64,000 nt of DNA, from positions 1,116,001 through 1,180,000 of the forward strand of contig NZ_JAKCFI010000003.1 in the NCBI RefSeq assembly GCF_021412625.1. Direction: 5' to 3'. The notes under the pieces were generated by a model that saw only the letters and a program-made list of their open reading frames with translations, did not search any database and was not told the origin of the DNA. A program made the translations under genes and the position numbers. Shown here one piece after another: positions 29,010 to 40,484 of the stretch; position 1 is the first letter of the stretch, and every line of letters starts with the position of its first letter. Source of the stretch: Myxococcus stipitatus (lineage in GTDB: Bacteria; Myxococcota; Myxococcia; Myxococcales; Myxococcaceae).

Positions 29010-29702
29010 CTAACGACCGCTGCCGCCGATGGCCTGCACCTGCGAGTCGAGCTTCTGCCACTCGGCTCGCGCCTCGCGCTGCTGCTTCAGGTCGTTCTCG
29101 ACGACCTGCTGCGTCTGCTGGGCCTTCTGCTTCGCCTCGTCCACCTTGCGGGCAAACTCATTACCGTTGAGCTTCTCCGCGCGGACATCGCCGCTGTGCT
29201 GGAGGGTCTGGTAACGCGCCTGCTCCAGCTCCGCCTCGGCGACATCGCGCTCGCGCTCGCGCATCGTCTTCAGGGACTTGCGCGTGGTGGCCACCCGCTC
29301 GCGCCAGGTCACCTGGGCCTTGGCCGCCGCCAGCTGGGCGTCCGCCTGCTCGAGGCGCTGCTGGGCGTTGGGGTCCTCACCTCGGCCCGTCTCCTTCGAG
29401 GCCTTCACCGCGGACTGGGCCGCGTCCCTGCTGGCCTTGGCCGCCTTCTCCTCCTTCTTGGCGATCTTCAGCTCGCGCTTGCCGTCCTCCTCGGCGACGC
29501 TGGCCCGCGTCACCTGGTCCTCCGCCTTGTTCAAGGTGGCCTGCGCCTGGCGCACGTCGTTCATCTGGTCGGGCGGCACCCGCGCCAGCCAGGACTCGTC
29601 CACCTTCGTGCTGTGACGGCTGGAGCTACAGCCGCCGCTCAGGCCCAGCAGTAGCGCCGCGGAGAGGCTCCCCAGGACGTTGCGTTGCCTCGACTGGAAC
29701 AT
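29010..29702 (-). CDS. Coiled-coil lipoprotein at the end of the dab-type operon
   Basis: 230 residues. The start at 29702 is fixed by AGGAGGG and a lipoprotein signal (LLLGLSGGCSSS). The mature part is a long, highly charged heptad-rich helix (about residues 45-220: QATLNKAEDQVTRASVAEED, KIAKKEEKAAKASRDAAQSA, QQTQQVVENDLKQQREARAE), i.e. an elongated coiled coil anchored by a lipid. The gene overlaps the preceding NuoM/MrpD-like gene by 77 bases in another frame on the same strand. Whether it belongs to the carbon pump functionally or only by position is unknown. Confidence 0.75.
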   Translation of the reverse strand: MFQSRQRNVLGSLSAALLLGLSGGCSSSRHSTKVDESWLARVPPDQMNDVRQAQATLNKAEDQVTRASVAEEDGKRELKIAKKEEKAAKASRDAAQSAVKASKETGRGEDPNAQQRLEQADAQLAAAKAQVTWRERVATTRKSLKTMRERERDVAEAELEQARYQTLQHSGDVRAEKLNGNEFARKVDEAKQKAQQTQQVVENDLKQQREARAEWQKLDSQVQAIGGSGR

Positions 29703-31077
29703 GGTGTTCCCTCCTATTCCGGATGTCTTCCAGCAGACGGTGGTCACGCCGCGCGTCGATGGAAGGTGCCATGGAGGGAGGGAGAGACGACGGACCGAGG
29801 CCCAGTCCTCCGGCGAGGAGGGCGGCGACCAGCGCCACCGCCACCCACCGCTCCCGGGGAAGCAGGTCCGTGAAGGGGCGCGACGAGGGGGGGCCGAGGA
29901 AGGTGCGCTGCCAGGCTCGCAGGAGCGTGACGGCGTCGAGCACCAGGGCCAGCAGGAGCGGGAGCGTCGACGCCGGCTGGCTCTCGAAGACGGCGCGAAG
30001 GAGCAGGTCCTCGCTGGTGAAGCCGAGCGTCCCCGGGAGGCCCATGCCGGCGAGGGCGAGCAGCAGGAAGAGCGCAGACATGCGTCCGGCCGACCCCTGG
30101 AGCCCTCCCAGCTTCGTCATGTCCGCGGTCCCCGCTCGGCCCTCCAACGACTGGACCAGCAGGCCCAGCCCCGCGAAGGTCAGCCCGAGGACGATGACCT
30201 GGAGTCGCGCGGCGCCCGCGTCTCCCCAGGCCATCGCCGCGAGCAGCAGGCCGGAGTGGCTCGACAGCACGAAGCCCAGCATGCGCCGGAGGTCCGTCTG
30301 GGCCCACGCCAGCACGGCCCCGTGGAGCGCGGTCCCGACGCCCAGGATGCCCAGCCACGTCGGCACCCCGGGCCCGAGCGCGGGAGACAGCCGCTCCCAC
30401 AGGACGAACCCCGACAGGACGTTCATCAGCGGGAAGGCCATCCCCATGGGCATCCTCGTCACCACCGTGGGGAGCCAGGAGTGGAAGGGCACCACGGCCA
30501 TGCGGACGCCCACCGCCACCACCGTCAGCGAGGCCAGTCCCAGCGCTCCGAACGGCGCGCCGACGTGGGCGAGCCGCGAGAGGTCCGTGTCACCGGACAG
30601 GTCCAGGCCCAGCAGCGCCAGCAGCGGCAGCGCGCCCACGAGCATGGACAGGTGGAGCACGCGCGCCTCGTGAGGGCCCTCGCCGTCCGGGGCTCGTCGA
30701 GCCAGCAGGATGCCCAGGGGAACCGGGAGGGCCATGAGACAGCCGAGCCACGCCGCCGGGGCGCGCGCGAGGACGACGCCCATGGTCGCGCTCTCGGTGA
30801 GCAGCAGGGCCATCGACATCTCCCGGTCCAGGAGCCCGCGAGGACCTCCGACCAGCGTCGCGACGACGAGCAACGCGACGAGGGGACAGAGCGCGGGCGC
30901 CTCCGGGGAGACCCGCGCGGACGGCGCGAGGGTGAGCAGCGAGAGGCCCAGCGTGAGGAGTGCCCAGAGCGTGGCCACCCGCGTGGCGCGCGCGACCGTC
31001 CGCGTCCGGATGAGCGACAGCGCGCCCACGAGGGGCAGCGCTGGCAACAGCGTCGTGAGGGAGGGGAGCGGGAGCAT
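29626..31077 (-). CDS. NuoM/MrpD-like proton-channel subunit
   Basis: 483-residue multi-pass membrane protein related to antiporter-like subunits of complex I and Mrp antiporters. Family marks: VVPFHSWLPTVVTRMPM, QTDLRRMLGFVLSSHSGLL, and GMGLPGTLGFTSEDLLLRA. It starts with a TGATG overlap on the stop of the DabB-like gene, so it is translationally coupled. DAB systems usually have one such subunit (DabB); here a second follows, suggesting a heterodimeric ion channel. Its C-terminal 25 codons overlap the coiled-coil lipoprotein gene. Confidence 0.85.
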   Translation of the reverse strand: MLPLPSLTTLLPALPLVGALSLIRTRTVARATRVATLWALLTLGLSLLTLAPSARVSPEAPALCPLVALLVVATLVGGPRGLLDREMSMALLLTESATMGVVLARAPAAWLGCLMALPVPLGILLARRAPDGEGPHEARVLHLSMLVGALPLLALLGLDLSGDTDLSRLAHVGAPFGALGLASLTVVAVGVRMAVVPFHSWLPTVVTRMPMGMAFPLMNVLSGFVLWERLSPALGPGVPTWLGILGVGTALHGAVLAWAQTDLRRMLGFVLSSHSGLLLAAMAWGDAGAARLQVIVLGLTFAGLGLLVQSLEGRAGTADMTKLGGLQGSAGRMSALFLLLALAGMGLPGTLGFTSEDLLLRAVFESQPASTLPLLLALVLDAVTLLRAWQRTFLGPPSSRPFTDLLPRERWVAVALVAALLAGGLGLGPSSLPPSMAPSIDARRDHRLLEDIRNRREHHVPVEATQRPGEPLRGATAGPERRL

Positions 31078-32414
31078 CACGCGGCTCCCGTGGAGGGCTT
31101 GCCGGGAGAGGGCTCGCCGGGGCGGGTGGGTGCTGCTCGTGGCGCGGTCTCCTCGGTGAGGCGTCCCACCCAGCGACGCTCGGCGGAGTCCAGCGCGTGT
31201 GCGACGCGCCGCAAGGGTTGGAGGACCCAATGCTCGCAATGCGCGTCCACGGCGAAGCGCTCCAGGGCGAGGCGGTAGAGGCGTGGTTCGAGGGAAGGCG
31301 GCGCGAGCCGGTGCAGCCAGGCGAAAGAGGGCGGGCGCGTGTCGCGCAGGGCGGCGCGGCGTGTCTGGGCGTGGCGCAGCGCGGAGGGCGCCTGGAGGAA
31401 TTGGAGACAGCGCAGGCTGGCGTGCGCCAGCAGGTGGAGCAGGGCCAGTGAGGTCAACCCGAGCCCCACCTCCACGAACATCAACCCCACCTGCGTGAGG
31501 ACCCCCTGGGCCAGCGCGCCCTTCACGTCTGGCTGGACGCGCCAGACGAGCGTGGCGTGGAGCGCGGTGAGCAGCCCCACCAGCACCATCGCGCCGCGGG
31601 CGAGGGGCGCCTGCATCAGCAGGGGCGAGGCTCGCAGCATCAGGTAGACCCCGGCATGGATGGAGAGCGCGCCATAGAAGAGGGCGCTGGAGGGCGTCGG
31701 GCCTTCCATCGCGCGCGCCAGCCAGCCGCTGAAGGGGAGCTGGGCCGATTTGCCCAGCGCGGCGAGCAGCAGGCACAGCGCCAGGGCCGTCGCCGGGAGC
31801 CCCTGCGCGGAGGTGGGCCAGCGCGCGGTCCCCGTGGCGTGATGGAGCCAGGCCAGCGCCGCGAGCAGGCCGACGTCGCAGAGACGGTAGGCCCCGAACG
31901 CGCGCAGGCTCGCGCGGACGGGGCCCGCGCGCTCCTGGAAGAACCCGATGAGCAGGGCCGAGGACAGGCCCACCCACTCCCAGCCGACGAGGAGCACCTC
32001 CAGGCTGCCTCCACCCACGAGCAGGTGCATCCCCGCCGAGAACAGCGCCAGCAACAGGAAGAAGCGCGCGAAGCCCGGCTCGCGGTGCAGATAGGAGACG
32101 GAGAAGCGCCCCACCAGCAGGGTGACGGTGCTCACCAACACGAGCAGGGGCGCGGACACCCCGTCCACCTGGAAGGGGTGCCCCGAGGGAAGCCACGCCA
32201 CGAACACGGGCTGGGGATGCACGGCCCACCACGCGCTCACTCCCACCGCGCATCCCCACGACAGCCACAGGGCCCCGAGCACCTGTCGGGCTACCGCGCG
32301 CTCGCTCGGGGCGCGCGCGAGGAGCATCGTCCCTCCCAGCAGGAGGAAGGACAGCAGCGGCGACAGGGGAATCGCCGCGGCGAACCAACCCGGGTTGAGC
32401 TCAGGGAACGCCAT
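31077..32414 (-). CDS. dabB: DabB-like (NuoL-type) subunit of an inorganic-carbon pump
   Basis: 445-residue membrane protein of the NuoL/NdhF/MrpA type. It carries LVGWEWVGLSSALLIGFF (conserved Glu), LGKSAQLPFSGWLARAMEG (conserved Lys, then the family signature) and PTPSSALFYGALSIHAGVYL. In known DAB/MpsAB systems this subunit conducts cations and drives bicarbonate or CO2 hydration by the DUF2309 partner. It starts 14 bases inside the end of dabA. The first residues (FPELNPGWFAAAIPLSPLLS) are the first membrane helix. Function is inferred from the DabA partner. Confidence 0.87.
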   Translation of the reverse strand: MAFPELNPGWFAAAIPLSPLLSFLLLGGTMLLARAPSERAVARQVLGALWLSWGCAVGVSAWWAVHPQPVFVAWLPSGHPFQVDGVSAPLLVLVSTVTLLVGRFSVSYLHREPGFARFFLLLALFSAGMHLLVGGGSLEVLLVGWEWVGLSSALLIGFFQERAGPVRASLRAFGAYRLCDVGLLAALAWLHHATGTARWPTSAQGLPATALALCLLLAALGKSAQLPFSGWLARAMEGPTPSSALFYGALSIHAGVYLMLRASPLLMQAPLARGAMVLVGLLTALHATLVWRVQPDVKGALAQGVLTQVGLMFVEVGLGLTSLALLHLLAHASLRCLQFLQAPSALRHAQTRRAALRDTRPPSFAWLHRLAPPSLEPRLYRLALERFAVDAHCEHWVLQPLRRVAHALDSAERRWVGRLTEETAPRAAPTRPGEPSPGKPSTGAA

Positions 32415-35400
32415 GGGCCTCTCCTTCCGATGGGGCCGTGCCGCTCGCGCCAAGGATGAGCGCGGGAGGGAGGAAGTCGCGCTGCCCCGCGTACCAGTCG
32501 GGTGAGGACGCGGCTCGGGGCAGCGGTGTGTCCGGTGTGTCGAGGGGCTGGAAGCCCTGGGGCGTGAACCGACGCTGAGCGCCGGTCGTCGGGTCCACGC
32601 TGACCAGCTGGACCCAGGCATGGGCGACGAGCTCTCGCAGGGCGGGCTGTCGCTCCAGGATGTCCGACAGCACGGTGACGCTCGCCTCGACGACGAGCAG
32701 CAGGCGCATGGGCTCGTGCAGCTCGACCATCTGGCGCGGGAGGCCCGTGCGCAGGTCGCTCTCCGCGCCGTCCATCACGCCCAGCAGGCCCGTCAGGTTG
32801 TGAGGCAGCTTGGTCCCACAGCCATGGCGCTCGTTGTCGACGTGGGAGAAGTAGTACTCGAGGCTGATGCCCGCGCCGACGGGGGCCGCCGCGAGCAGGA
32901 GGCGCTCGATGATGGCGCCGCTCGCGTCGCGTCGCGGGTCGTAGGAGATGAGGAAGGCGCGCCGGTCGAGGAACAGCCCGCGCGTGAGGGCCCGCCGGCC
33001 CACGATGCAGACGGCGTTCATGGCGTGGCCCAGCTCGGGCCGGGGCTGGCCCAGGTCCGCGGCGCGCGCCTCGACATGGCGCAGGGCCTGGGTGGGGGAC
33101 AGCTTCCCTGGCGCCGAGTCGAAGCGACGGCAACGTTCGTGCGCGGACAGGGCACGGGCATGGTCGAGCGCTCGGCGAAGCGCGGACAGCTCCCCGTGGA
33201 GCCGGGCGGGCACTTCGTGGAGGTCGTACAGGTGGACTTCATCGGTGGTCGTGTCGTGGAGCCCGCCGATGAACCAGGAGGTGTCGGGGAGGGCGATGCC
33301 TCGTTCGCGCAGGCGCGCGCGGACCTCCGGGCGATTGGCCATCTGCGCGAAGAGCCGCGCGTTGGGCCCTCCCTGCCTGCCACCACAGGCGCCGCAGTCA
33401 TAGGCCGCCCGATGCGGGTTGTTGACGCTCGCGGCGCCATGGCCGAGGACGACCACGAGCGGCGCGAAGCCCTCCACGAGCCCCATGCCCTCCAGCGCGC
33501 TCGCGACACGCTGCGCCTGCTCGTCGACCGTGAAGCCCCGTGGCTTCGCGCCTGGCTCCGCGTCCGCTGGCTCGCGCAGGGTCGTCAGCCGCGTCCTCGG
33601 CGTCGGCAGGAAGGTCGAGGCGAACGCTCGACGCAGCTGCTCCAGCCAGCGTGGAAGGAGCACCTGGAACGGGAGGAGCACCAGGGAGAGCAGCCCGAGC
33701 ACCGGCGTCAGCAACCACGCGACCTCGAGGGCCTGGCTGCCGTGGTCCAGGCCGTGCTGGAGCCTCGCACCGTGCGCGCGCCGTCGCGCTCGCAGGCGGG
33801 CGCGGGCATCCTCGGCGGGGAGCGGATGCTCCTCCACGATGTGGGCGGGCGTCATGACCACGGGACAGAGGGCGACGGACCGCGCGTCGTCCAGCCCCTG
33901 GTAGTCGAAGGCCACGCCGAAGAAGCCCGCGATGCCGAAGGTCTCGTGGCGGGTATCCTGCTCCTCGAAGTGGCGGCGCATGGATTCCTCGCGGTCGTCC
34001 ATGCAGAACCACAGTTGGAAGCGAGGGGCGCGCACCTCGCGCTCCGCCTCGGGGCGCAGCCGGTTGCGCGCGAGCCCCCAGGCCAGCTGCTGGCGGTAGT
34101 GGCGCTCATGGGCTTCGTGCCAGAGGCGCCGCCTCGTCGAGGGCGAGAAGCGCTCGATGGCCTCCAGGAGGAGCTGTCCGCGTCGAGGGGGAAGCTCCGC
34201 GACCTCCATCGCGGACACGCCCAGGTGCTGCATCCACTGGAAGAACCGCCAGCTGCCTTCCTCCAGGGGAGGGGCTCCGGCCTCGGCGCGCATCGCGTCG
34301 CGCGCCACGTCCGCGAGCGCGGCCAGCGGGCCGTGATGTCCCAGGTGCTCCCGAGCGGCGGCCTCCAGGGCGGCGCGCTCCAGGGTGAGTCGCACCGCGA
34401 GGAAGTCCATCAACCTCGCGGGCGGCGCATCGGCGGGGCGGGTCGCGTCGTGCTCCAGGCGGTGGAACATGCCCGCCCAGCCGGGCAGCGCCCGCAGCAC
34501 GCGGACGAGGTACGGCTCCCACCGCGCCTCGGGGACGCCCAGGGCCTCGAGCACGTCGAGCACCGCGTCCTCCGCGGAGTCGGCGCCGTCACCGAGGTCC
34601 TGCTCCGGTGGGCGAAGCCACGCCAGCTCGGCCCCCAGTCCCGCGCGGCGGAGCGCGAGCCACGCGGCGTAGAGGCCCCGCCGACGATGAGGCATGGGCC
34701 AGTGGGAGAAGCCTTCGTCCAGGAAGGCCCCGCAGACGCGGATGAGGTGCGGATGGAGCCAGTCTCCGACATCGACGCCCGTGGCCGCGAGCAGCAGCTC
34801 GCGATGGTCGCGGAGGGGCGCGGGCCCGTTGGAGGGCGGCGGACACACCGTGAGCCGCTGTGCCTGGCTCTGGGACCAGAGCGCGGCCACGGCGAGTGGC
34901 TCGCAGTCGCGCTCCAGCTGCTCCCAGAGCGAGGCCCAGGTTCCCTCCCCACCGAAGGCCGTGGCGAGCGCGCGAGGGAGGATGGCGGCTTCGGCGCTCA
35001 GCCACCGCTCCATCGTGAGCGTTGGCGTGTCCCGGACCGTCTCCTTCACGCGCACCAGATAGTCGGCGGCGCGCGCGTGGGGGATGCCCAGCCTTCGCAA
35101 GGCGACGTCCATGGGGAGGACGCGTTGGAGGCAGAGCGCGGCGGCGCGGACCGAGTCGCCGAGGGTGGGTTCCAGCAAGGCGCTCGCCAGCGTCGTCAAC
35201 GTCCAGTCGCGCGCCACGCGGTCCAGCCAGCACCGGAGCCCGGTTCGGGAGGCGGCCAGGAAGCGCCGCCGCGCTTCCTCGGAGACGTCCTCGCGGAGGC
35301 GGCGCGCGGCGGACAGCTCCGTGAGGCGCCATCGCAGGGAGGACGAGGTCTCCCGGGGCACCGGATGGAGCAGCGCGAGCAGCGCCACGCGCTCGGGAGA

Positions 35401-35856
35401 GAAGAGGGCCTCCACCGAGTCATCTGGCCGCATCGCGACGCGGTCCCCCACCGGCGCCTCGGCGTCGCGGCGGGTCGACGCGAGGTGGAGGGCGCGTGGA
35501 GCAGGCGCCGCGCCTTCCTCGCTCCACGCCCGGGGGGAAGGAAGTGGGGCTCGCGGTCGCGTCGTGACGCCTTCCTCCTCCAGCACGGCGAGGAGGTCGT
35601 CGATGGTGATTCGCCCCTGGCGATACAGCTCCAGATAGCGCGCCTCGGAGAGATAGCCCTCCGCGCCGAAGGTCTCGCTCGCGGCGGCGAGGGCGTCGTG
35701 GAAGGGCAGGTGCTGGAAGGCGTGCAGCGTGTTGTGGTGGACGAACGTGCCGATGGGGCCCTGCGCGGGGAGCAGGTGGGCGGCGCGCTCCAGGGCCTCG
35801 CGCAGGCGCGCGGCGCGGCTCCCGGTCGAAGGCGTGGGGATGGGGGCGGGATGCAT
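32401..35856 (-). CDS. dabA: DabA (DUF2309/UPF0753) zinc protein of an inorganic-carbon pump
   Basis: Large cytoplasmic/peripheral protein, 1151 residues, longer than common DabA (about 800-1050). The four residues of the beta-carbonic-anhydrase-like zinc site are present: Cys618 and Asp620 in WFCMDDREES, and His806 and Cys821 in LGHGAASVNNPH and YDCGACGG. The 15-residue His-Cys spacing equals that of characterised DabA, so the site is probably functional. DabA with a NuoL-like partner hydrates CO2 vectorially, trapping bicarbonate in the cell. Start with GAGGGAGA; only 12 bases separate it from the upstream SulP gene. Confidence 0.92.
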   Translation of the reverse strand: MHPAPIPTPSTGSRAARLREALERAAHLLPAQGPIGTFVHHNTLHAFQHLPFHDALAAASETFGAEGYLSEARYLELYRQGRITIDDLLAVLEEEGVTTRPRAPLPSPRAWSEEGAAPAPRALHLASTRRDAEAPVGDRVAMRPDDSVEALFSPERVALLALLHPVPRETSSSLRWRLTELSAARRLREDVSEEARRRFLAASRTGLRCWLDRVARDWTLTTLASALLEPTLGDSVRAAALCLQRVLPMDVALRRLGIPHARAADYLVRVKETVRDTPTLTMERWLSAEAAILPRALATAFGGEGTWASLWEQLERDCEPLAVAALWSQSQAQRLTVCPPPSNGPAPLRDHRELLLAATGVDVGDWLHPHLIRVCGAFLDEGFSHWPMPHRRRGLYAAWLALRRAGLGAELAWLRPPEQDLGDGADSAEDAVLDVLEALGVPEARWEPYLVRVLRALPGWAGMFHRLEHDATRPADAPPARLMDFLAVRLTLERAALEAAAREHLGHHGPLAALADVARDAMRAEAGAPPLEEGSWRFFQWMQHLGVSAMEVAELPPRRGQLLLEAIERFSPSTRRRLWHEAHERHYRQQLAWGLARNRLRPEAEREVRAPRFQLWFCMDDREESMRRHFEEQDTRHETFGIAGFFGVAFDYQGLDDARSVALCPVVMTPAHIVEEHPLPAEDARARLRARRRAHGARLQHGLDHGSQALEVAWLLTPVLGLLSLVLLPFQVLLPRWLEQLRRAFASTFLPTPRTRLTTLREPADAEPGAKPRGFTVDEQAQRVASALEGMGLVEGFAPLVVVLGHGAASVNNPHRAAYDCGACGGRQGGPNARLFAQMANRPEVRARLRERGIALPDTSWFIGGLHDTTTDEVHLYDLHEVPARLHGELSALRRALDHARALSAHERCRRFDSAPGKLSPTQALRHVEARAADLGQPRPELGHAMNAVCIVGRRALTRGLFLDRRAFLISYDPRRDASGAIIERLLLAAAPVGAGISLEYYFSHVDNERHGCGTKLPHNLTGLLGVMDGAESDLRTGLPRQMVELHEPMRLLLVVEASVTVLSDILERQPALRELVAHAWVQLVSVDPTTGAQRRFTPQGFQPLDTPDTPLPRAASSPDWYAGQRDFLPPALILGASGTAPSEGEAHGVP

Positions 35857-35868
35857 CGCCGGTCTCCC

Positions 35869-37515
35869 TCAGGAGGTGAGCTCCAGGCCCGCCGTCGCGC
35901 TCTTCTTCCTCGCCGACAGGGGATGGTGGGAGAGCCCCCGGTGCTGCTCCATCCCGAGCAGCCCCAGCGCGCGTCCCTCCCTGGAGAACTCCCGCTCCAG
36001 CTCCTGGAACCGCTGCATCACCGTGTGGTCGATGAGCCTCGCGTCGGCCAGGTCCACGTCGACGCGGGGGACCCGCGCGTGCCGGGTCAGTCGCTTCTTG
36101 AGGGCGAGGAAGTTGGTGAACACCGCGGCGCCCCGCACCCGCAGCACCACGCGCTCCGCCGTCACCTGCTCCTCGATGTCCGCGCGGAAGAGGCCGCGCG
36201 CGGGCGCTCCGTTGAACAGGTTCACGCCCACCTTCACCACGATGCCCGCGGCCACGCCCAACAGCAGGTCCGTCGCCAGGGTGACGCCCAGCGTGACGCC
36301 GAAGATGAGGAGCTGCTCCACGCCGACCCGCAGCGTCTTCACCCACTCGCCCGGCGACGCCAGTCGCACGCCCGTGAAGATGAGCATCCCCGCCAGCGCC
36401 GCGAGCGGAATCCGGTGGATGAGCATGGGCGCGAACGCCACGAACGACAGCAGGAACACGCCGTGGAAGAAGTTCGAGAGGCGGCCCCGCGCCCCGTAGC
36501 CGATGTTCGCCGTGCTGCGCACGACCTCCGAAATCATCGGCAGCCCCCCCAGCATCCCCGCCACCAGGTTGCCGACGCCCGTGGCGAACAGGTCCTTGTC
36601 CAGGTCCGAGCGGCCCTGGTCCGGCGCCATCAGGTCCACCGCCTTGACGGTCAGCAGCGACTCGACGCTGCCCACCAGCGCGAACATGACGATGTATTCG
36701 AGCGACGTGGGCGTCAGGACGGCGGAGAAGTCCGGGAACGTCACCGCCGTGAGCAGGTTGCCCGGCAGGTTCACCAGGTGGTTGGGGCCCACCGTGAAGA
36801 CCGCGTGGGAGAAGGTGAAGGTGTGCGAGTGCTCCAGGTCGAACGCCACACCCAGGGGCACCGTCACCAACAGGACCAGCAGCGGCGCGGGCACCCGCTT
36901 CAACGCGGAGACGCGCCGCGCGAGCGCCGCGTGGCCGAAGAGCAGCGCGAGCGACAGCGCGCCGATGAGCGCGATTTCGGGGTTCAGCCTCGCCACGCTG
37001 GAAGGAATCTCCCCCAGCAGGCGCAAGGGCTCCTTCGCGACGGGCGTCACCCCCAGCAGGACGTGGACCTGCTTGGCGCAGATGATGACCCCGATGGCCG
37101 CGAGCATCCCGTGGACCACCGAGGACGGGAAGAAGTCCCCCAGCCGTCCCGCGCGCAGCGCCGCGAACGCTATCTGGAGGACGGCGGCCACCACGATGGT
37201 CGCCAACGCGCGGCGATAGCCGAGCCCCAGGTCACCGTCCCCCAGCTCCGTCACCGCGCCCAGCGCGATGACGATGAGGCCCGCCGCCGGTCCCTTGATG
37301 GTCAGCGCCGCGCTCCCCGTCCACGTGCTGACGAGCCCACCCACCACCGCAGTGAGGATGCCCGCCACGGGAGGGAAGCCGCTCGCCATCGCGATACCCA
37401 GACAGAGCGGCAGCGCGATGAGGAAGACGAGGAAGCCGGAGACCAGGTCACCCTTCCACGTGGCTCGCCCTCGGGTCTCGTGGGAATGACAGACAGCGGA
37501 CGGCGGATGTCGCAT
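35869..37515 (-). CDS. SulP-family (SLC26) anion transporter
   Basis: 548 residues with about 12 hydrophobic spans and a C-terminal STAS-like domain (about residues 435-520: VVLRVRGAAVFTNFLALKKR). SulP marks include LPLCLGIAMASGFPP, TIKGPAAGLIVIALGA, and SVESLLTVKAVD with GRSDLDKDLFATGVGN and GGLPMISEVVRSTANI. Family substrates are sulphate, bicarbonate and other anions. Being first in an operon with dabA and dabB, bicarbonate is the likely substrate (BicA-like). An AGGAGG site precedes the start. It is divergent from an ECF sigma gene. Confidence 0.9.
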   Translation of the reverse strand: MRHPPSAVCHSHETRGRATWKGDLVSGFLVFLIALPLCLGIAMASGFPPVAGILTAVVGGLVSTWTGSAALTIKGPAAGLIVIALGAVTELGDGDLGLGYRRALATIVVAAVLQIAFAALRAGRLGDFFPSSVVHGMLAAIGVIICAKQVHVLLGVTPVAKEPLRLLGEIPSSVARLNPEIALIGALSLALLFGHAALARRVSALKRVPAPLLVLLVTVPLGVAFDLEHSHTFTFSHAVFTVGPNHLVNLPGNLLTAVTFPDFSAVLTPTSLEYIVMFALVGSVESLLTVKAVDLMAPDQGRSDLDKDLFATGVGNLVAGMLGGLPMISEVVRSTANIGYGARGRLSNFFHGVFLLSFVAFAPMLIHRIPLAALAGMLIFTGVRLASPGEWVKTLRVGVEQLLIFGVTLGVTLATDLLLGVAAGIVVKVGVNLFNGAPARGLFRADIEEQVTAERVVLRVRGAAVFTNFLALKKRLTRHARVPRVDVDLADARLIDHTVMQRFQELEREFSREGRALGLLGMEQHRGLSHHPLSARKKSATAGLELTS

Positions 37516-37591
37516 CGAACCAGGCCTCCTGATTCACCGGCCCGCATCTCCTCGGCGGAGGCGTGTCTCCGGTGCATCGAGGCCTGGAGAT

Positions 37592-37614
37592 GGAACGAAA
37601 CACGAACGGGTTCC
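37592..37614. promoter_or_regulatory. Inverted GGAAC/GTTCC pair in a divergent promoter region
   Basis: GGAAC (37592-37596) and GTTCC (37610-37614) form an inverted pair separated by 13 bases in the 161-bp region between sulP (minus) and the ECF sigma gene (plus). GGAAC is the common -35 core of ECF promoters, so the two could be divergent -35 elements or an operator. No convincing -10 was found for either direction. Confidence 0.3.
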
Positions 37615-37676
37615 CGGGAATGCCTTGCTTGTCGTTTTCAGGGCCGACGCCGTCCGAGCGCCTTAGAGACAAGGGA

Positions 37677-38315
37677 ATGGAGACGGAAGCAGTGCGGGGG
37701 GCCGTGTCTGGATTCGACATGGGACAGAGGCGGGACGACGGCGGCGCGCTGGCGCGCGCGCGTTTCGAGGCGGCGGTGGAGCCCTTGTTGCCGAGGCTGT
37801 ATCGCTTCTGTCTGGCTTTGTGTCACAGCCGACAGGAGGCGGAGGACCTGCTGCAGGACTCGCTGGTGCGGGCCTACCTGAACCGCGATGACGTCCAGGA
37901 GGGGCTCTCGCTGGGCTGGCTGTGCGGTATCGCACGCAACCAATTTCTCGAGAATCGGCGCTCGCTGGCGCGGCGGCGCTCGCTGCTGGACGCGGTGCTG
38001 GAGGGGGCCACGTCCGTGCTGGGGCCGTTGTTCGCGGGAGGCGTCGAGCAGCCGGACCCCGAGGCGCGGCTGGGCGCCTCCGAGGAGGTGGACCGGCTGT
38101 GGCGCTGCCTGCGCGAGCTGCCGGAGAAGTTCCGGCTGGTGGTGCTGCTGTGTGACGTGGAGGAGCTGGGGCACGACGAGGCGGCGCGGGTGCTGGGGCT
38201 GCCGGTGGGGACCGTGAAGAGTCGACACTTCAGGGGGCGCGCCAGGCTGGGGGTCTTGTTCGCGTCCTCGGTGGGGCGACACGCTCACCCTGTCAGTGAA
38301 GGAGGCCGTCCATGA
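37677..38315 (+). CDS. ECF-type RNA polymerase sigma factor
   Basis: Extracytoplasmic-function sigma factor of 212 residues. Region 2 is seen as LYRFCLALCHSRQEAEDLLQ with DSLVRAYL, and region 4 as LRELPEKFRLVVLLCDVEEL and VLGLPVGTVKSRHFRGRARL, with an intervening linker. The start at 37677 has AAGGGA only one base ahead; an ATG at 37719 is an alternative. The gene is divergent from the sulP-dab operon and overlaps the next gene by an ATGA, the usual sigma/anti-sigma organisation. Its regulon may include the divergent operon; this is inference. Confidence 0.9.
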   Translation: METEAVRGAVSGFDMGQRRDDGGALARARFEAAVEPLLPRLYRFCLALCHSRQEAEDLLQDSLVRAYLNRDDVQEGLSLGWLCGIARNQFLENRRSLARRRSLLDAVLEGATSVLGPLFAGGVEQPDPEARLGASEEVDRLWRCLRELPEKFRLVVLLCDVEELGHDEAARVLGLPVGTVKSRHFRGRARLGVLFASSVGRHAHPVSEGGRP

Positions 38316-38938
38316 GTGAGCATGACGAGGCCCATCCGCCCCTGTCCGACGAGGTGCGCGCCGCGCTCACGGCCCTCCGGGAGGAGAAGCCCTCGGCCCG
38401 GCTGAAGGCCCGCGTGAGCGACGCGCTCGCCCGGGCCGACCTGGCGCCCACCGCCGCGCGCGCATCCGACGACGGACCGGGTCGCGCTCGCGCGTGGGGC
38501 GGGTCGCCGCTCTCCGTCCTCTCCCTGGCGAGCCTGGGCCTGGGCGGGGCGGTGGTGCTGTGGGGGCTGTTCTGTGGCGTGGAGGCACGGGACGCGGAGC
38601 GGGTCCCCGCGCGCGAGGTGGCGTTCCAACGGTCGGGCGCGGGAGAGGGATGGCTGGAGCTGCCGTGGTCCCACGCCGTCCACTCCGGAGAGCCGGCGAC
38701 GGTGTGGTTGGAGACCTCGCCTCCGCTGGATTTCCGCCCCCACCTGAGGGACCTGCCCTCGCTGGCGCTGGTGAACTGCGACGCGGCCCGCTGCGTCCAT
38801 GCCTTCACCGCGAGGACCGGGCAGGAGGCGACGCCCCTGCGCGTGCGCATCGATCGCCCCGGTCGCTACGAGCTGCGCCTGTCCCACGTCTCGGAGGTCC
38901 GTCACGTCCAGGAGCGCTTCGTCGTGGTCGTCGATTGA
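38312..38938 (+). CDS. Putative anti-sigma factor
   Basis: 208 residues translated by 4-base overlap with the sigma gene. A cytoplasmic Arg/Ala-rich N-terminal region (about 65 residues) is followed by one transmembrane helix (LASLGLGGAVVLWGLFCGV) and a periplasmic beta-rich domain containing a Cys pair (NCDAARC). No zinc-binding HxxxCxxC motif is visible, so if it is an anti-sigma factor it is not of the ZAS type. Function is inferred from position and topology. Confidence 0.65.
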   Translation: MSEHDEAHPPLSDEVRAALTALREEKPSARLKARVSDALARADLAPTAARASDDGPGRARAWGGSPLSVLSLASLGLGGAVVLWGLFCGVEARDAERVPAREVAFQRSGAGEGWLELPWSHAVHSGEPATVWLETSPPLDFRPHLRDLPSLALVNCDAARCVHAFTARTGQEATPLRVRIDRPGRYELRLSHVSEVRHVQERFVVVVD

Positions 38939-38996: not shown

Positions 38997-40484
38997 ATGA
39001 GCGCCCTCATGTCTGCTTCCGAGCAACCCCCGAGACCGGATGGGCGCGTGTCGACCGGTGTCCCGGGGCTCGATGCCGTGCTGAATGGCGGTCTGGTGTC
39101 CTCGGGCGTCTACATCGTCGTGGGCGAGCCCGGGGCGGGCAAGACGCTGCTGGCCAACCAGCTCTGCTACCACCAGGGGCGCGCGGGCGCCCGGTGTCTG
39201 TACGTCACGCTGCTGGCGGAGTCCCACGCGCGCATGCTCGCCAACATGCGGGACATGGCGTTCTTCGACCCGGCGCTGCTGCCCGAGGGGGTCTATTACG
39301 TCAGCGGCTTCCGCACGCTGGAGGAGCAGGGCCTGCCGGGGCTGCTGGAGCTGCTGCGCCGCGAGGTGCGCAACCACAACGCCAGCATCCTCGTGCTGGA
39401 CGGACTGGTGCAGGCGCAGGAGGCGGCGGGCAGCAGCCGCGACTTCAAGAAGTTCATCCACGAGTTGCAGGTGGCCGCGGGGCTGGCGCGCTTCACGGCG
39501 CTGATGCTCACCAGCTCCAACGGCCCCACCGTCCACCCGGAGTACACCATGGTGGATGGCATCCTGGAGCTGCGCGAGCGGACCATGGGCGTGCGCTCGT
39601 GGCGCGAGCTGCAGGTGCGCAAGTTCCGCGGCGGCGCGACCCTGCCGGGTGTCCACACCTTCCGCATCAGCAACGAGGGCCTGGAGGTCTTCCCCCGCCT
39701 GGAGGCGCGCGTGCGCCGCTCGCAGCCGCCGGCGCCGGACACCGCGCGGGTCCACTTCGGCATCCCGTCGCTGGACGACCTGTTCCCCGCGGGCCTGGCC
39801 GCGGGCTCCAGCACGTTGATGCTCGGTCCCCCCGGCAGCGGCAAGACGCTCATGGGCAGCAGCCTGCTGGCCGAGGGAGTGAGGCAGGGCGAGCCCTGCC
39901 TCTACATGGGCTTCTACGAGGCGCCCGAGCGACTGCTGCACAAGTTGGCGGCCGTGGGCATGGACCTGGGCGATGCGGTGAAGGTGGGGAGGATGCACAT
40001 CGTGTGGCAGCCGCCCGTCGAGTGCACCCTGGACGTGCTGGCGCACCAACTGCTCTCCACCGTGGAGCGCCACGGCATCCGGCGCGTGTTCGTGGATGGC
40101 CTGAGCGCCATGGGGCAGGCGGCGCCGGACGCCTCGCGGATGAGCTCGTTCTTCGCGGCCCTCACCCAGGAGCTGCGCTACCTGAAGGCGACCACCATTT
40201 TCAGTCTGGAGACGCCCCGGCTCTTCGGGGCGGTGCTGGACATGCCGCTGGAGGTCGGTCCCTCGGCCGTGGCGGAGAACCTCCTCTTCCTCCGGCACGT
40301 GGAGCTGGAGGGGAGGCTGCGGCGGCTGCTGTCCATCTTCAAGCTGCGCGACGCCGACTTCGACTCCTCCCTGCGGGAGTTCGTCATCTCCCAGCAGGGC
40401 ATCGAGGTGCAACCCCCGTTCAACTCCACCCTGGACACCCTGCTGACGGGCCTTGCCCGACGCGCACCGGGTGGCCATCCCTGA
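38997..40484 (+). CDS. KaiC-like double RecA-domain ATPase
   Basis: 495 residues with two tandem RecA/KaiC domains. Walker A motifs are GEPGAGKT (43-50) and GPPGSGKT (277-284); Walker B-like strands are ILVLDGL and RVFVDGL. The layout matches KaiC-like proteins without KaiA/KaiB partners. The second domain has TIFSLETPRL, like 'circadian' family ATPases that associate with response regulators. The start at 38997 has GGGGGCG upstream; 39009 is an alternative. It lies directly before a single-domain response regulator, so the pair probably forms a signalling unit. Confidence 0.88.
   Translation: MSALMSASEQPPRPDGRVSTGVPGLDAVLNGGLVSSGVYIVVGEPGAGKTLLANQLCYHQGRAGARCLYVTLLAESHARMLANMRDMAFFDPALLPEGVYYVSGFRTLEEQGLPGLLELLRREVRNHNASILVLDGLVQAQEAAGSSRDFKKFIHELQVAAGLARFTALMLTSSNGPTVHPEYTMVDGILELRERTMGVRSWRELQVRKFRGGATLPGVHTFRISNEGLEVFPRLEARVRRSQPPAPDTARVHFGIPSLDDLFPAGLAAGSSTLMLGPPGSGKTLMGSSLLAEGVRQGEPCLYMGFYEAPERLLHKLAAVGMDLGDAVKVGRMHIVWQPPVECTLDVLAHQLLSTVERHGIRRVFVDGLSAMGQAAPDASRMSSFFAALTQELRYLKATTIFSLETPRLFGAVLDMPLEVGPSAVAENLLFLRHVELEGRLRRLLSIFKLRDADFDSSLREFVISQQGIEVQPPFNSTLDTLLTGLARRAPGGHP

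Follow-up and report, generated by a model that had tools for sequence, protein, structure and literature searches.

The window, a stretch of 64,000 nucleotides of Myxococcus stipitatus DNA, carries five closely packed genes on its minus strand. The first encodes a SulP-family anion transporter (35869..37515, 548 aa; Pfam Sulfate_transp 5.4e-54 and a weak STAS match). It is followed by genes for a DabA of the clade-C type (32401..35856, 1151 aa; Pfam DabA 3.8e-251), a DabB of a short type (31077..32414, 445 aa; Proton_antipo_M 1.1e-34), a NuoM-like subunit for which ‘DabM’ is a possible working name (29626..31077, 483 aa; Proton_antipo_M 1.6e-24), and a lipoprotein (29010..29702; no Pfam match, with the lipobox and the coiled coil recognised by eye). 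The coordinates confirm the spacing given in the earlier note, a 12-bp gap and then overlaps of 14, 1 and 77 bp, and the Pfam matches show that the extra antiporter-like subunit and the SulP transporter placed by it in a DabA/DabB-family operon are real. On the plus strand lie a gene for an ECF sigma factor (37659..38315; Pfam Sigma70_r2 6.2e-11 and Sigma70_r4_2 3.9e-16), whose start codon is uncertain within a frame open from 37563, and, overlapping it, a gene for a one-helix membrane protein (38312..38938; one hydrophobic segment by eye, no Pfam match). Other neighbours are genes for a KaiC ATPase (38997-40484; PF06745 2.3e-56), a GST and an SCFA transporter (PF02667 4e-116).

Each of the ten close relatives examined (L018-L027) has the same SulP-DabA-DabB-NuoM-like order; thus, the four-gene arrangement is not due to chance. 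The proposed five-gene unit, by contrast, is not conserved, the lipoprotein gene having been found in seven of the ten stretches (not in L019, L024 or L027); in the genome of L024 a copy lies ~6 kb further on. Lipoprotein homologues are present in 25/25 genus genomes searched, 16 of which have no DabA, and at four sites (L150-L153, with KaiC 80–82% identical) the gene order KaiC, lipoprotein, SCFA transporter persists without the module. These four are the informative ones among 12 regions fetched for the lipoprotein site, the other eight containing another lipoprotein copy that says nothing about it. We therefore rejected the lipoprotein as a fifth subunit: it is a resident gene in DabA-less Myxococcus genomes and a neighbour of the module, and its membership in the complex, as assumed before, was not borne out.

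The ECF sigma gene is divergent from SulP in 22 loci, accompanied in 20 of them by the one-helix gene (L027 is cut there), and it was not found at the four sites lacking the module. An ECF-type promoter-like motif, GGAACC-N11-CGTTCCATC (37589..37614, minus strand), lies upstream of SulP, and such a motif points toward SulP in all 22 SulP-sigma intergenic regions. The exact motif occurs once per genome in nine other DabA-bearing Myxococcus genomes; the genome of the window has another exact match, in front of a polysaccharide-export gene, which was set aside, as these nine relatives have one each. Judged from gene content, the module is SulP-DabA-DabB-NuoM-like with a divergent ECF sigma factor, its one-helix partner and a promoter motif of its own. 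The one-helix protein is a candidate anti-sigma factor, and the ECF sigma factor of the module may control expression of the operon.

We take the window to belong to ‘clade C’ of the COG3002/YbcC operons described with COGNAT, a large branch in which ybcC lies upstream of nuoL together with COG0659 (sulfate permease type) and COG1008 (NuoM) genes (Klimchuk et al. 2017, PMC5700660). The arrangement, regarded earlier as unusual, has therefore already been in print: in the window, too, the DabA gene lies upstream of the DabB gene and is accompanied by genes for SulP and NuoM. The 2017 paper suggests that the number of ions moved rises with that of the membrane subunits and guesses at ion export powered by an exergonic reaction (PMC5700660); its application section predicts no function for YbcC and describes neither a DabB truncation nor a sigma module, the latter two being seen in the window. 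The new part appears to be the residue-level differences between clade-C and characterised proteins. The clade-C type was found in Myxococcota, Planctomycetota, Acidobacteriota, methanotrophs and nitrifiers; the wider set comprises the best 80 of at least 582 loci, and phylum shares in it are meaningless. In a tree of 77 rows built with a quick method, clade-C rows split from classical DabA with an SH-aLRT of 100; the L028 and classical groups, both on long branches, join each other there, so the deepest clade-C splits are unsure. A search of the open-access literature, with most subscription papers outside it, found no experiments on clade-C systems.

Among characterised systems, MpsAB of Staphylococcus aureus resembles the window in that DabA/DabB homologues supply inorganic carbon in a heterotroph. 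There, however, mpsA and mpsB suffice to complement carbonic-anhydrase-minus E. coli (PMC6689103), whereas a NuoM-like subunit is added in the window; Na+/bicarbonate symport has been proposed for MpsAB, as cited in the DAB2 paper (PMC13144422). The adjacent NuoL-like PF00361 partner of DAB/MpsAB systems is present (DabB, 1.1e-34). The structure of DAB2 from Halothiobacillus neapolitanus (PDB 9rd0) contains two subunits, with 15 TM helices in DabB2 (PMC13144422). As far as that account goes, DAB2 and the window share the DabA family, zinc ligands, Asp-Arg dyad, membrane finger and NuoL-like partner; the window has a third subunit, and finger Glu444, Leu658 and DabB TM12-15 are all missing from it.

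The window's protein almost certainly belongs to the DabA family, matching PF10070 over profile positions 2-747 of 747. Alignment to characterised DabA2 (C351, D353, H524, C539) bears out the zinc-site residues named in the earlier note, Cys618, Asp620, His806 and Cys821, and the Asp-Arg dyad is intact (D620-R622). Across clade-C DabA, C351, H524, D353 and R355 are conserved in 93/93 rows and C539 in 92/93, with two genomes counted twice (L040 with L025, L041 with L018). The AF2 model (mean pLDDT 79.2) retains the finger helices (680-708 and 710-733), and its match to CsoSCA (2fgy_A, Z 10.6, rmsd 4.8, 317 aligned) points to a beta-CA-like fold. The fold matches listed for the DabA and DabB models (library to April 2026) include no DAB2 chain, which has no bearing on likeness. 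In our alignments DabA2 and DabB2 were used as fragments.

Glu444 of the DabA2 finger, whose replacement by Ala or Gln abolished DAB2 activity (PMC13144422), corresponds to Pro in the window. This column is Glu in 0/93 clade-C versus 5/5 classical DabA, and in 0/38 versus 10/11 in the Myxococcota census. None of columns 425 to 465 is acidic in more than 30% of clade-C rows; Asp occupies column 444 in 16/93, all from methanotroph/nitrifier-type proteobacterial loci. At the column of Leu658, reported as strictly conserved in 150 DabA homologues (PMC13144422), the window has H944, located in a low-confidence AF2 stretch (943-946), and His is found in 92/93 clade-C DabA, at odds with that report. 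Neither search pattern spans column 444 or 658.

For ordinary beta-CAs, a Gln or His in this position has been proposed as the transition-state residue (PMC13144422). The near-universal clade-C His, together with SulP lying nearby in 35/38 clade-C versus 0/11 classical Myxococcota loci (several classical flanks are cut), would fit a carbonic anhydrase that works reversibly, is coupled to a SulP bicarbonate exchanger and serves pH or anion balance, not bicarbonate accumulation. We hold this to be quite improbable: DAB2 Leu658Gln showed no CO2 hydration in vitro (PMC13144422), and many clade-C loci showed no SulP nearby, the gene being seen in 17/28 single-type or undetermined and 5/23 multi-type loci with both flanks. 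DAB2 Leu658 mutants remained active in vivo (PMC13144422), so the clade-C His may matter little. The best NCBIfam match of the window's SulP is DauA (155 bits, far below the cut-off), and BicA scores 124.9 bits against a cut-off of 880; we lean slightly towards bicarbonate as the transported anion.

The window's DabB consists of NuoL-like TM1-11 followed by an amphipathic C-tail, and TM12-15 are lacking in its sub-branch. From Lys347 on, nearly all single-type rows retain 82–133 residues (50 of 52; the exceptions are a fusion and a row cut by its contig), compared with 179–200 in six classical Myxococcota DabB rows. The AF2 model contains eleven membrane-length helices or helix groups, and E. 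coli NuoL 1-562 aligns on its residues 8-411 (7p7c_L, Z 40.9, rmsd 3.3, 395 residues), which we read as TM12-14 being skipped in DabB. E146, R177, D180, K222, K298, H327 and H331 are retained; Y247 and R335 replace DabB2 His260 and Lys347. The column of NuoL Glu144 is Glu in 83/83 DabB rows, including the window, unlike DabB2 with its Ile151 (PMC13144422).

The NuoM-like protein of the window lacks the TM5 Glu and the TM8 Lys, has Arg at the TM7 Lys column, and keeps E356-D357 in TM12. In single-type rows Glu144 and Lys234 are each present in 0/49, and Lys265 in one (L093, a truncated multi-type locus), another row being cut before it. Column 408, which adjoins the column homologous to NuoL Lys399 and so occupies the position of Asp400, is acidic in 47/47 usable single-type rows; L093 and L044 (cut by a contig end) are excluded from these 47, and the count leaves out fusions and chains shorter than 380 residues outside the Myxococcota set, the L044 frame excepted. 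E407 alone was rejected as the conserved acid, not being Glu in most planctomycetes, while column 408 is acidic throughout. The C-half is conserved above the N-half (0.76 vs 0.63; 0.56 vs 0.45). Natural DabB-NuoM fusions occur in L042 and L075, and L217 and L218 are DabB fusions with the C-terminal part of NuoM only, L217 matching the NuoM-like profile weakly (21 bits).

A multi-channel pump, as suggested in the earlier note, would have a complete proton channel in both DabB and the NuoM-like subunit, with two protons entering per CO2. The NuoM-like profile does align across almost all of E. coli NuoM, and the upstream and second downstream NuoM-like proteins of a nested multi-subunit branch keep Glu144, Lys234, Lys265 and Glu407 in 42/42 rows (actinobacterial rows uncounted). 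In all usable single-type relatives, however, as in the window, the inner half-channel residues are missing, the NuoM-like N-half is the less conserved one, the C-terminal NuoM part is all that two loci retain in fusion with DabB, and DabB itself lacks outer half-channel helices. A second channel is thus not supported for the window's complex, where we regard this pump as improbable; multi-pump versions are likely in the methanotrophs, nitrifiers and actinobacteria of the nested sub-branch, as far as conserved residues indicate.

Another possibility is that the NuoM-like subunit replaces DabB TM12-15 as a scaffold that holds the DabA finger and moves no protons, DabB alone conducting. In DAB2, DabB2 TM11-14 pack against the finger (PMC13144422); the short DabB lacks most of this region, the finger helices are still present, and the shortest natural forms retain the C-terminal helices of NuoM only. 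A bare scaffold, on the other hand, would need neither the invariant TM12 acid nor the invariant DabB Glu, and DabB alone, with the finger Glu gone, has no evident outer half-channel. We consider a pure scaffold unlikely.

DabA, DabB and the NuoM-like protein very likely form a three-subunit complex: 60 of 65 loci with sufficient downstream sequence have both partners, in the same 60 loci, a locus being counted as having DabB if any match to it lay on the strand of DabA. This complex is predicted, with good probability, to hydrate CO2. We favour one composite path across DabB and the NuoM-like subunit over two parallel channels, at roughly even odds of being right. The inner (cytoplasmic) half-channel would be formed by DabB TM4-8 with E146, R177, D180 and K222, and the outer one by the NuoM-like TM9-13 bundle with the TM12 acids E356/D357. 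The halves would meet at an interface analogous to that of NuoM and NuoL in complex I, where the NuoL K229/D178 pair is proposed to open on protonation of NuoM E407. Protons entering down the membrane potential would drive or gate conversion of CO2 to bicarbonate at the beta-CA-like zinc site of DabA, with SulP probably in support by moving an anion, most likely bicarbonate. The family is that of NuoM/NuoL and MrpA/MrpD, and DabB also has the same modelled fold; unlike complex I and Mrp, no redox-arm or small Mrp subunit genes were found beside the antiporter-like genes at the locus, and some of the usual channel residues or helices are missing from DabB and from the NuoM-like protein alike. 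Further PF00361 genes sit elsewhere in the genome, on contigs C9 and C10.

The composite path is consistent with the intact zinc site, the loss of finger Glu444, the short DabB, the DabB interface Glu, the column-408 acid, the better conserved NuoM-like C-half, the fusions and the co-occurrence of both partners. Several observations speak against it: Asp at column 444 in some clade-C DabA; the loss of Glu at column 407 of the NuoM-like protein in most planctomycetes; Arg at column 234, which could substitute for Lys and leave a weak NuoM-like channel of its own; the NuoM remnant in L217 and L218, which could just refill the missing DabB TM12-14 in a different geometry; and the five loci with neither partner nearby. 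The explanation as a whole, a clade-C DAB-type vectorial carbonic anhydrase with a two-subunit proton path, could equally well hold or fail.

The RuBisCO large chain was not found in the 10.1-Mb genome, consistent with the host being an apparent heterotroph, as supposed earlier. Two beta-carbonic anhydrases are also encoded there, and DabA occurs in 10/27 genus genomes only; thus, the system is accessory.

As to how the membrane potential forces a carbonic anhydrase to work in one direction, the 2026 DAB2 structure points to Glu444 of the finger, and its authors note the strict conservation of Leu658 (PMC13144422); a branch spread across several phyla does without both. Tentatively, clade-C DABs may be mechanistically separate proton-driven carbonic anhydrases, with a transition-state His, no finger switch and NuoM-NuoL-like two-subunit coupling, extended in methanotrophs and nitrifiers, with additional expansion in some actinobacteria, to a chain of four or five antiporter-like subunits taking several protons per CO2. 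The altered key residues make the coupling mechanism newly testable, since swaps of features between branches bear directly on the coupling model, and in the multi-subunit forms nature would have run its own experiment on how many protons enter per CO2.

The positions, small gaps and overlaps that the earlier note had given for five minus-strand genes were confirmed from the coordinates: SulP (35869-37515), DabA (32401-35856), NuoL-like DabB (31077-32414), a NuoM-like protein (29626-31077) and a lipoprotein (29010-29702). Each of the ten near relatives examined (L018-L027) conserves the order SulP-DabA-DabB-NuoM-like. In seven of these ten stretches the lipoprotein gene was found, and at L018 it lies ~1.2 kb from the NuoM-like gene. 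All 25 genus genomes searched carry homologues of the lipoprotein, including 16 that lack DabA. At four sites without the module, KaiC, lipoprotein and SCFA-transporter genes keep the same order, and no sigma pair and none of the four operon genes were found in these stretches. Thus, the module comprises the SulP-DabA-DabB-NuoM-like operon together with an ECF sigma factor and the sigma factor's one-helix partner, and excludes the lipoprotein. A KaiC-family ATPase gene (PF06745; 38997-40484, plus strand) adjoins the sigma pair; since genomes lacking the module keep this gene in position, it probably has no link to the module. At one further locus, L028, a sigma-SulP pair (67% and 75% identical) has as its convergent neighbours DabA-DabB-NuoM genes from a different lineage (whose DabA is 39% identical over the matched part), so these partners probably came together more than once.

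SulP and sigma genes are divergent with a readable gap in 22 loci. A motif resembling GGAACC-N11-CGTTCC(A/G)TC faces SulP in all 22 gaps (exactly in 16), and ten also hold a sigma-facing copy. The exact motif occurs once per genome in nine other DabA-bearing Myxococcus genomes, at most a few kb from DabA; among seven DabA-less genomes, six have no copy and one has a single copy. Reversed-pattern controls gave no match in all 16 genomes. We infer that the ECF sigma factor recognises GGAACC-N11-CGTTCC. A second exact copy in the window's genome (L228:9958-9983, contig C19), ahead of Poly_export/Wzz genes, probably arose by chance, since none of the nine DabA-bearing relatives has a second exact copy.

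We searched genome contigs with ten DabA of the window's type and kept the best 80 of at least 582 relatives. These come from Myxococcota, Planctomycetota, Acidobacteriota, Verrucomicrobiota, methanotrophs, Nitrosospira, Actinomycetota and others; many are metagenome-assembled, and collection bias and the choice of the best 80 limit statements on abundance. Where at least 3.5 kb was available downstream, 60 of 65 loci carry DabB on the same strand, the same 60 have a downstream or fused NuoM-like partner, and five have neither. At L060, L065, L076, L087 and L088 a clade-C DabA has no DabB or NuoM-like gene downstream within the available stretch; L076 keeps an upstream NuoM-like gene. A NuoM-like gene upstream of DabA, or at least two downstream, was seen in 32 of the best 80 loci, the typical full multi-subunit order being NuoM-DabA-DabB-NuoM-NuoM. 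In a DabA tree built without trait columns, and carrying a long-branch warning, clade-C rows stand apart from classical DabA (SH-aLRT 100) and multi-subunit loci are nested inside clade C (support 100).

Of the 49 loci examined in a Myxococcota census, 38 belong to clade C and 11 are classical. Clade-C loci have DabB downstream in 37 cases, a NuoM-like partner that is separate in 35 and fused in two, and SulP within the stretch in 35; one locus (L219) is ended by its contig. No NuoM-like or SulP gene was found in the 11 classical loci, several with cut flanks, and DabB is upstream in all six where it is visible.

The two DabA types differ at several columns (DabA2 numbering). In the census, column 444 is Glu in 10/11 classical and 0/38 clade-C proteins, column 356 is Ser in 11/11 and Glu in 38/38, and column 658 is Leu in 11/11 and, in clade C, His in 36, Asn in one and a gap in one. 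A wider set comprised 93 clade-C rows (two genomes counted twice) and five classical ones. Zinc ligands and the Asp-Arg dyad hold across its clade-C rows, except for Tyr at C539 in L093. Column 444 is Glu in none of the 93 and Asp in 16, all of methanotroph/nitrifier type; at column 658 one row has Asn and the other 92 have His. Two more positions next to the zinc site vary: 87 of the 93 rows keep His at column 585, and at column 590 Asp occurs in 59 rows and Glu in 33 rows. Ordinary beta-CAs have Gln or His at the place of Leu658; the DAB2 study reports this Leu as strictly conserved in 150 homologues and its mutation as causing no loss in vivo (PMC13144422). The finger persists in the window's DabA model (mean pLDDT 79.2), whose fold is beta-CA-like with CsoSCA as the top match (Z 10.6); His944, at column 658, lies in a low-confidence stretch.

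Glu occupies the NuoL Glu144 position in each of the 83 clade-C DabB rows, and Arg182, Asp185 and Lys235 are likewise present in all of them. Tyr replaces His260 in 79 and Arg replaces Lys347 in 78; the remainder are four actinobacterial/chloroflexal rows with His and Lys, and one gap. From Lys347 on, single-type DabB has 82-133 residues in 50/52 rows, and six classical Myxococcota rows have 179-200. On these lengths truncation marks the single type only, since multi-type DabB mostly has 169-198. The window's AF2 model (mean pLDDT 85.9) contains eleven membrane helices; residues 386-423 form a long helix at the C-terminus, and residues 8-411 span E. coli NuoL 1-562 in structural alignment. We take the model to comprise TM1-11 and then the beginning of the lateral helix, which in NuoL lies along adjoining subunits.

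As references for the NuoM-like proteins we took NuoM of E. coli and NuoM of the window's genome, each with Glu144, Lys234, Lys265 and Glu407. Among single-type copies, the mis-sorted L093 alone has Lys265, and all 47 usable rows are acidic at column 408. The two-channel idea of the earlier note fits multi-subunit forms but not the window's, as Glu144 and Lys234 occur in 0/49 single-type proteins. In multi-subunit loci, upstream and second downstream copies have all four residues (42/42), and first downstream copies lack Glu144 and have Arg234, Lys265 and His408 (23/23). The C-terminal half is clearly more conserved than the N-terminal half in single-type proteins (0.76 versus 0.63; 0.56 versus 0.45) and slightly so in first downstream copies (0.74 versus 0.70); complete copies show no such lean (0.79 versus 0.82; 0.75 versus 0.77).

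DabB is fused to a whole NuoM-like protein at L042:11026-14340 (Sorangium, complete sequence), through an arginine-rich linker with a roughly 100-residue Arg-Arg-Ala-type repeat, and, through a longer linker, in the metagenome-assembled L075. At L217 and L218, all that follows DabB is a set of helices corresponding to the C-terminal portion of the NuoM-like profile (21 and 43 bits), and the acidic pair is retained. The fusions point to two products that act next to each other, and to the C-terminal part as the portion that must be kept.

DabB would supply the retained inner half, and the NuoM-like subunit the retained outer acid, of a single proton path common to both. The kept halves, missing complements and absent finger Glu fit one such two-subunit path; that this residue pattern makes a working channel is a step that we infer. 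In complex I, the NuoL Lys229/Asp178 pair is proposed to open when NuoM Glu407, across the joint, becomes protonated. DAB2 lacks a NuoM-like neighbour, and at the column of the clade-C Glu144 equivalent it has Ile (PMC13144422).

In methanotrophs, Nitrosospira and a Nitrotoga MAG, DabA lies amid three NuoM-like genes and DabB (L048, L055, L062, L063, L073, L074, L099, L109, L117, L118 and others). Judged by their residues, these loci may be true multi-proton forms, because all four channel residues are present in two of their three NuoM-like proteins. Actinobacterial L081 and L102 carry SulP, NuoM-like, DabA, and a much longer DabB that keeps His260/Lys347, followed by another three NuoM-like genes, of which the final one has Lys at column 407.

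The window's genome (10.1 Mb, 47 contigs) encodes one DabA, two beta-carbonic anhydrases and four SulP matches including a fragment; a RuBisCO large chain was not found in these 10.1 Mb. On contig C13 (L229) another SulP gene has a beta-carbonic anhydrase match close behind on the same strand, a candidate separate inorganic-carbon pair. DabA is accessory in genus and phylum, carried by 10/27 and 45/195 genomes, respectively. The gene arrangement is already in print: it was described in 2017 as clade C, with its function given as unknown there (PMC5700660).
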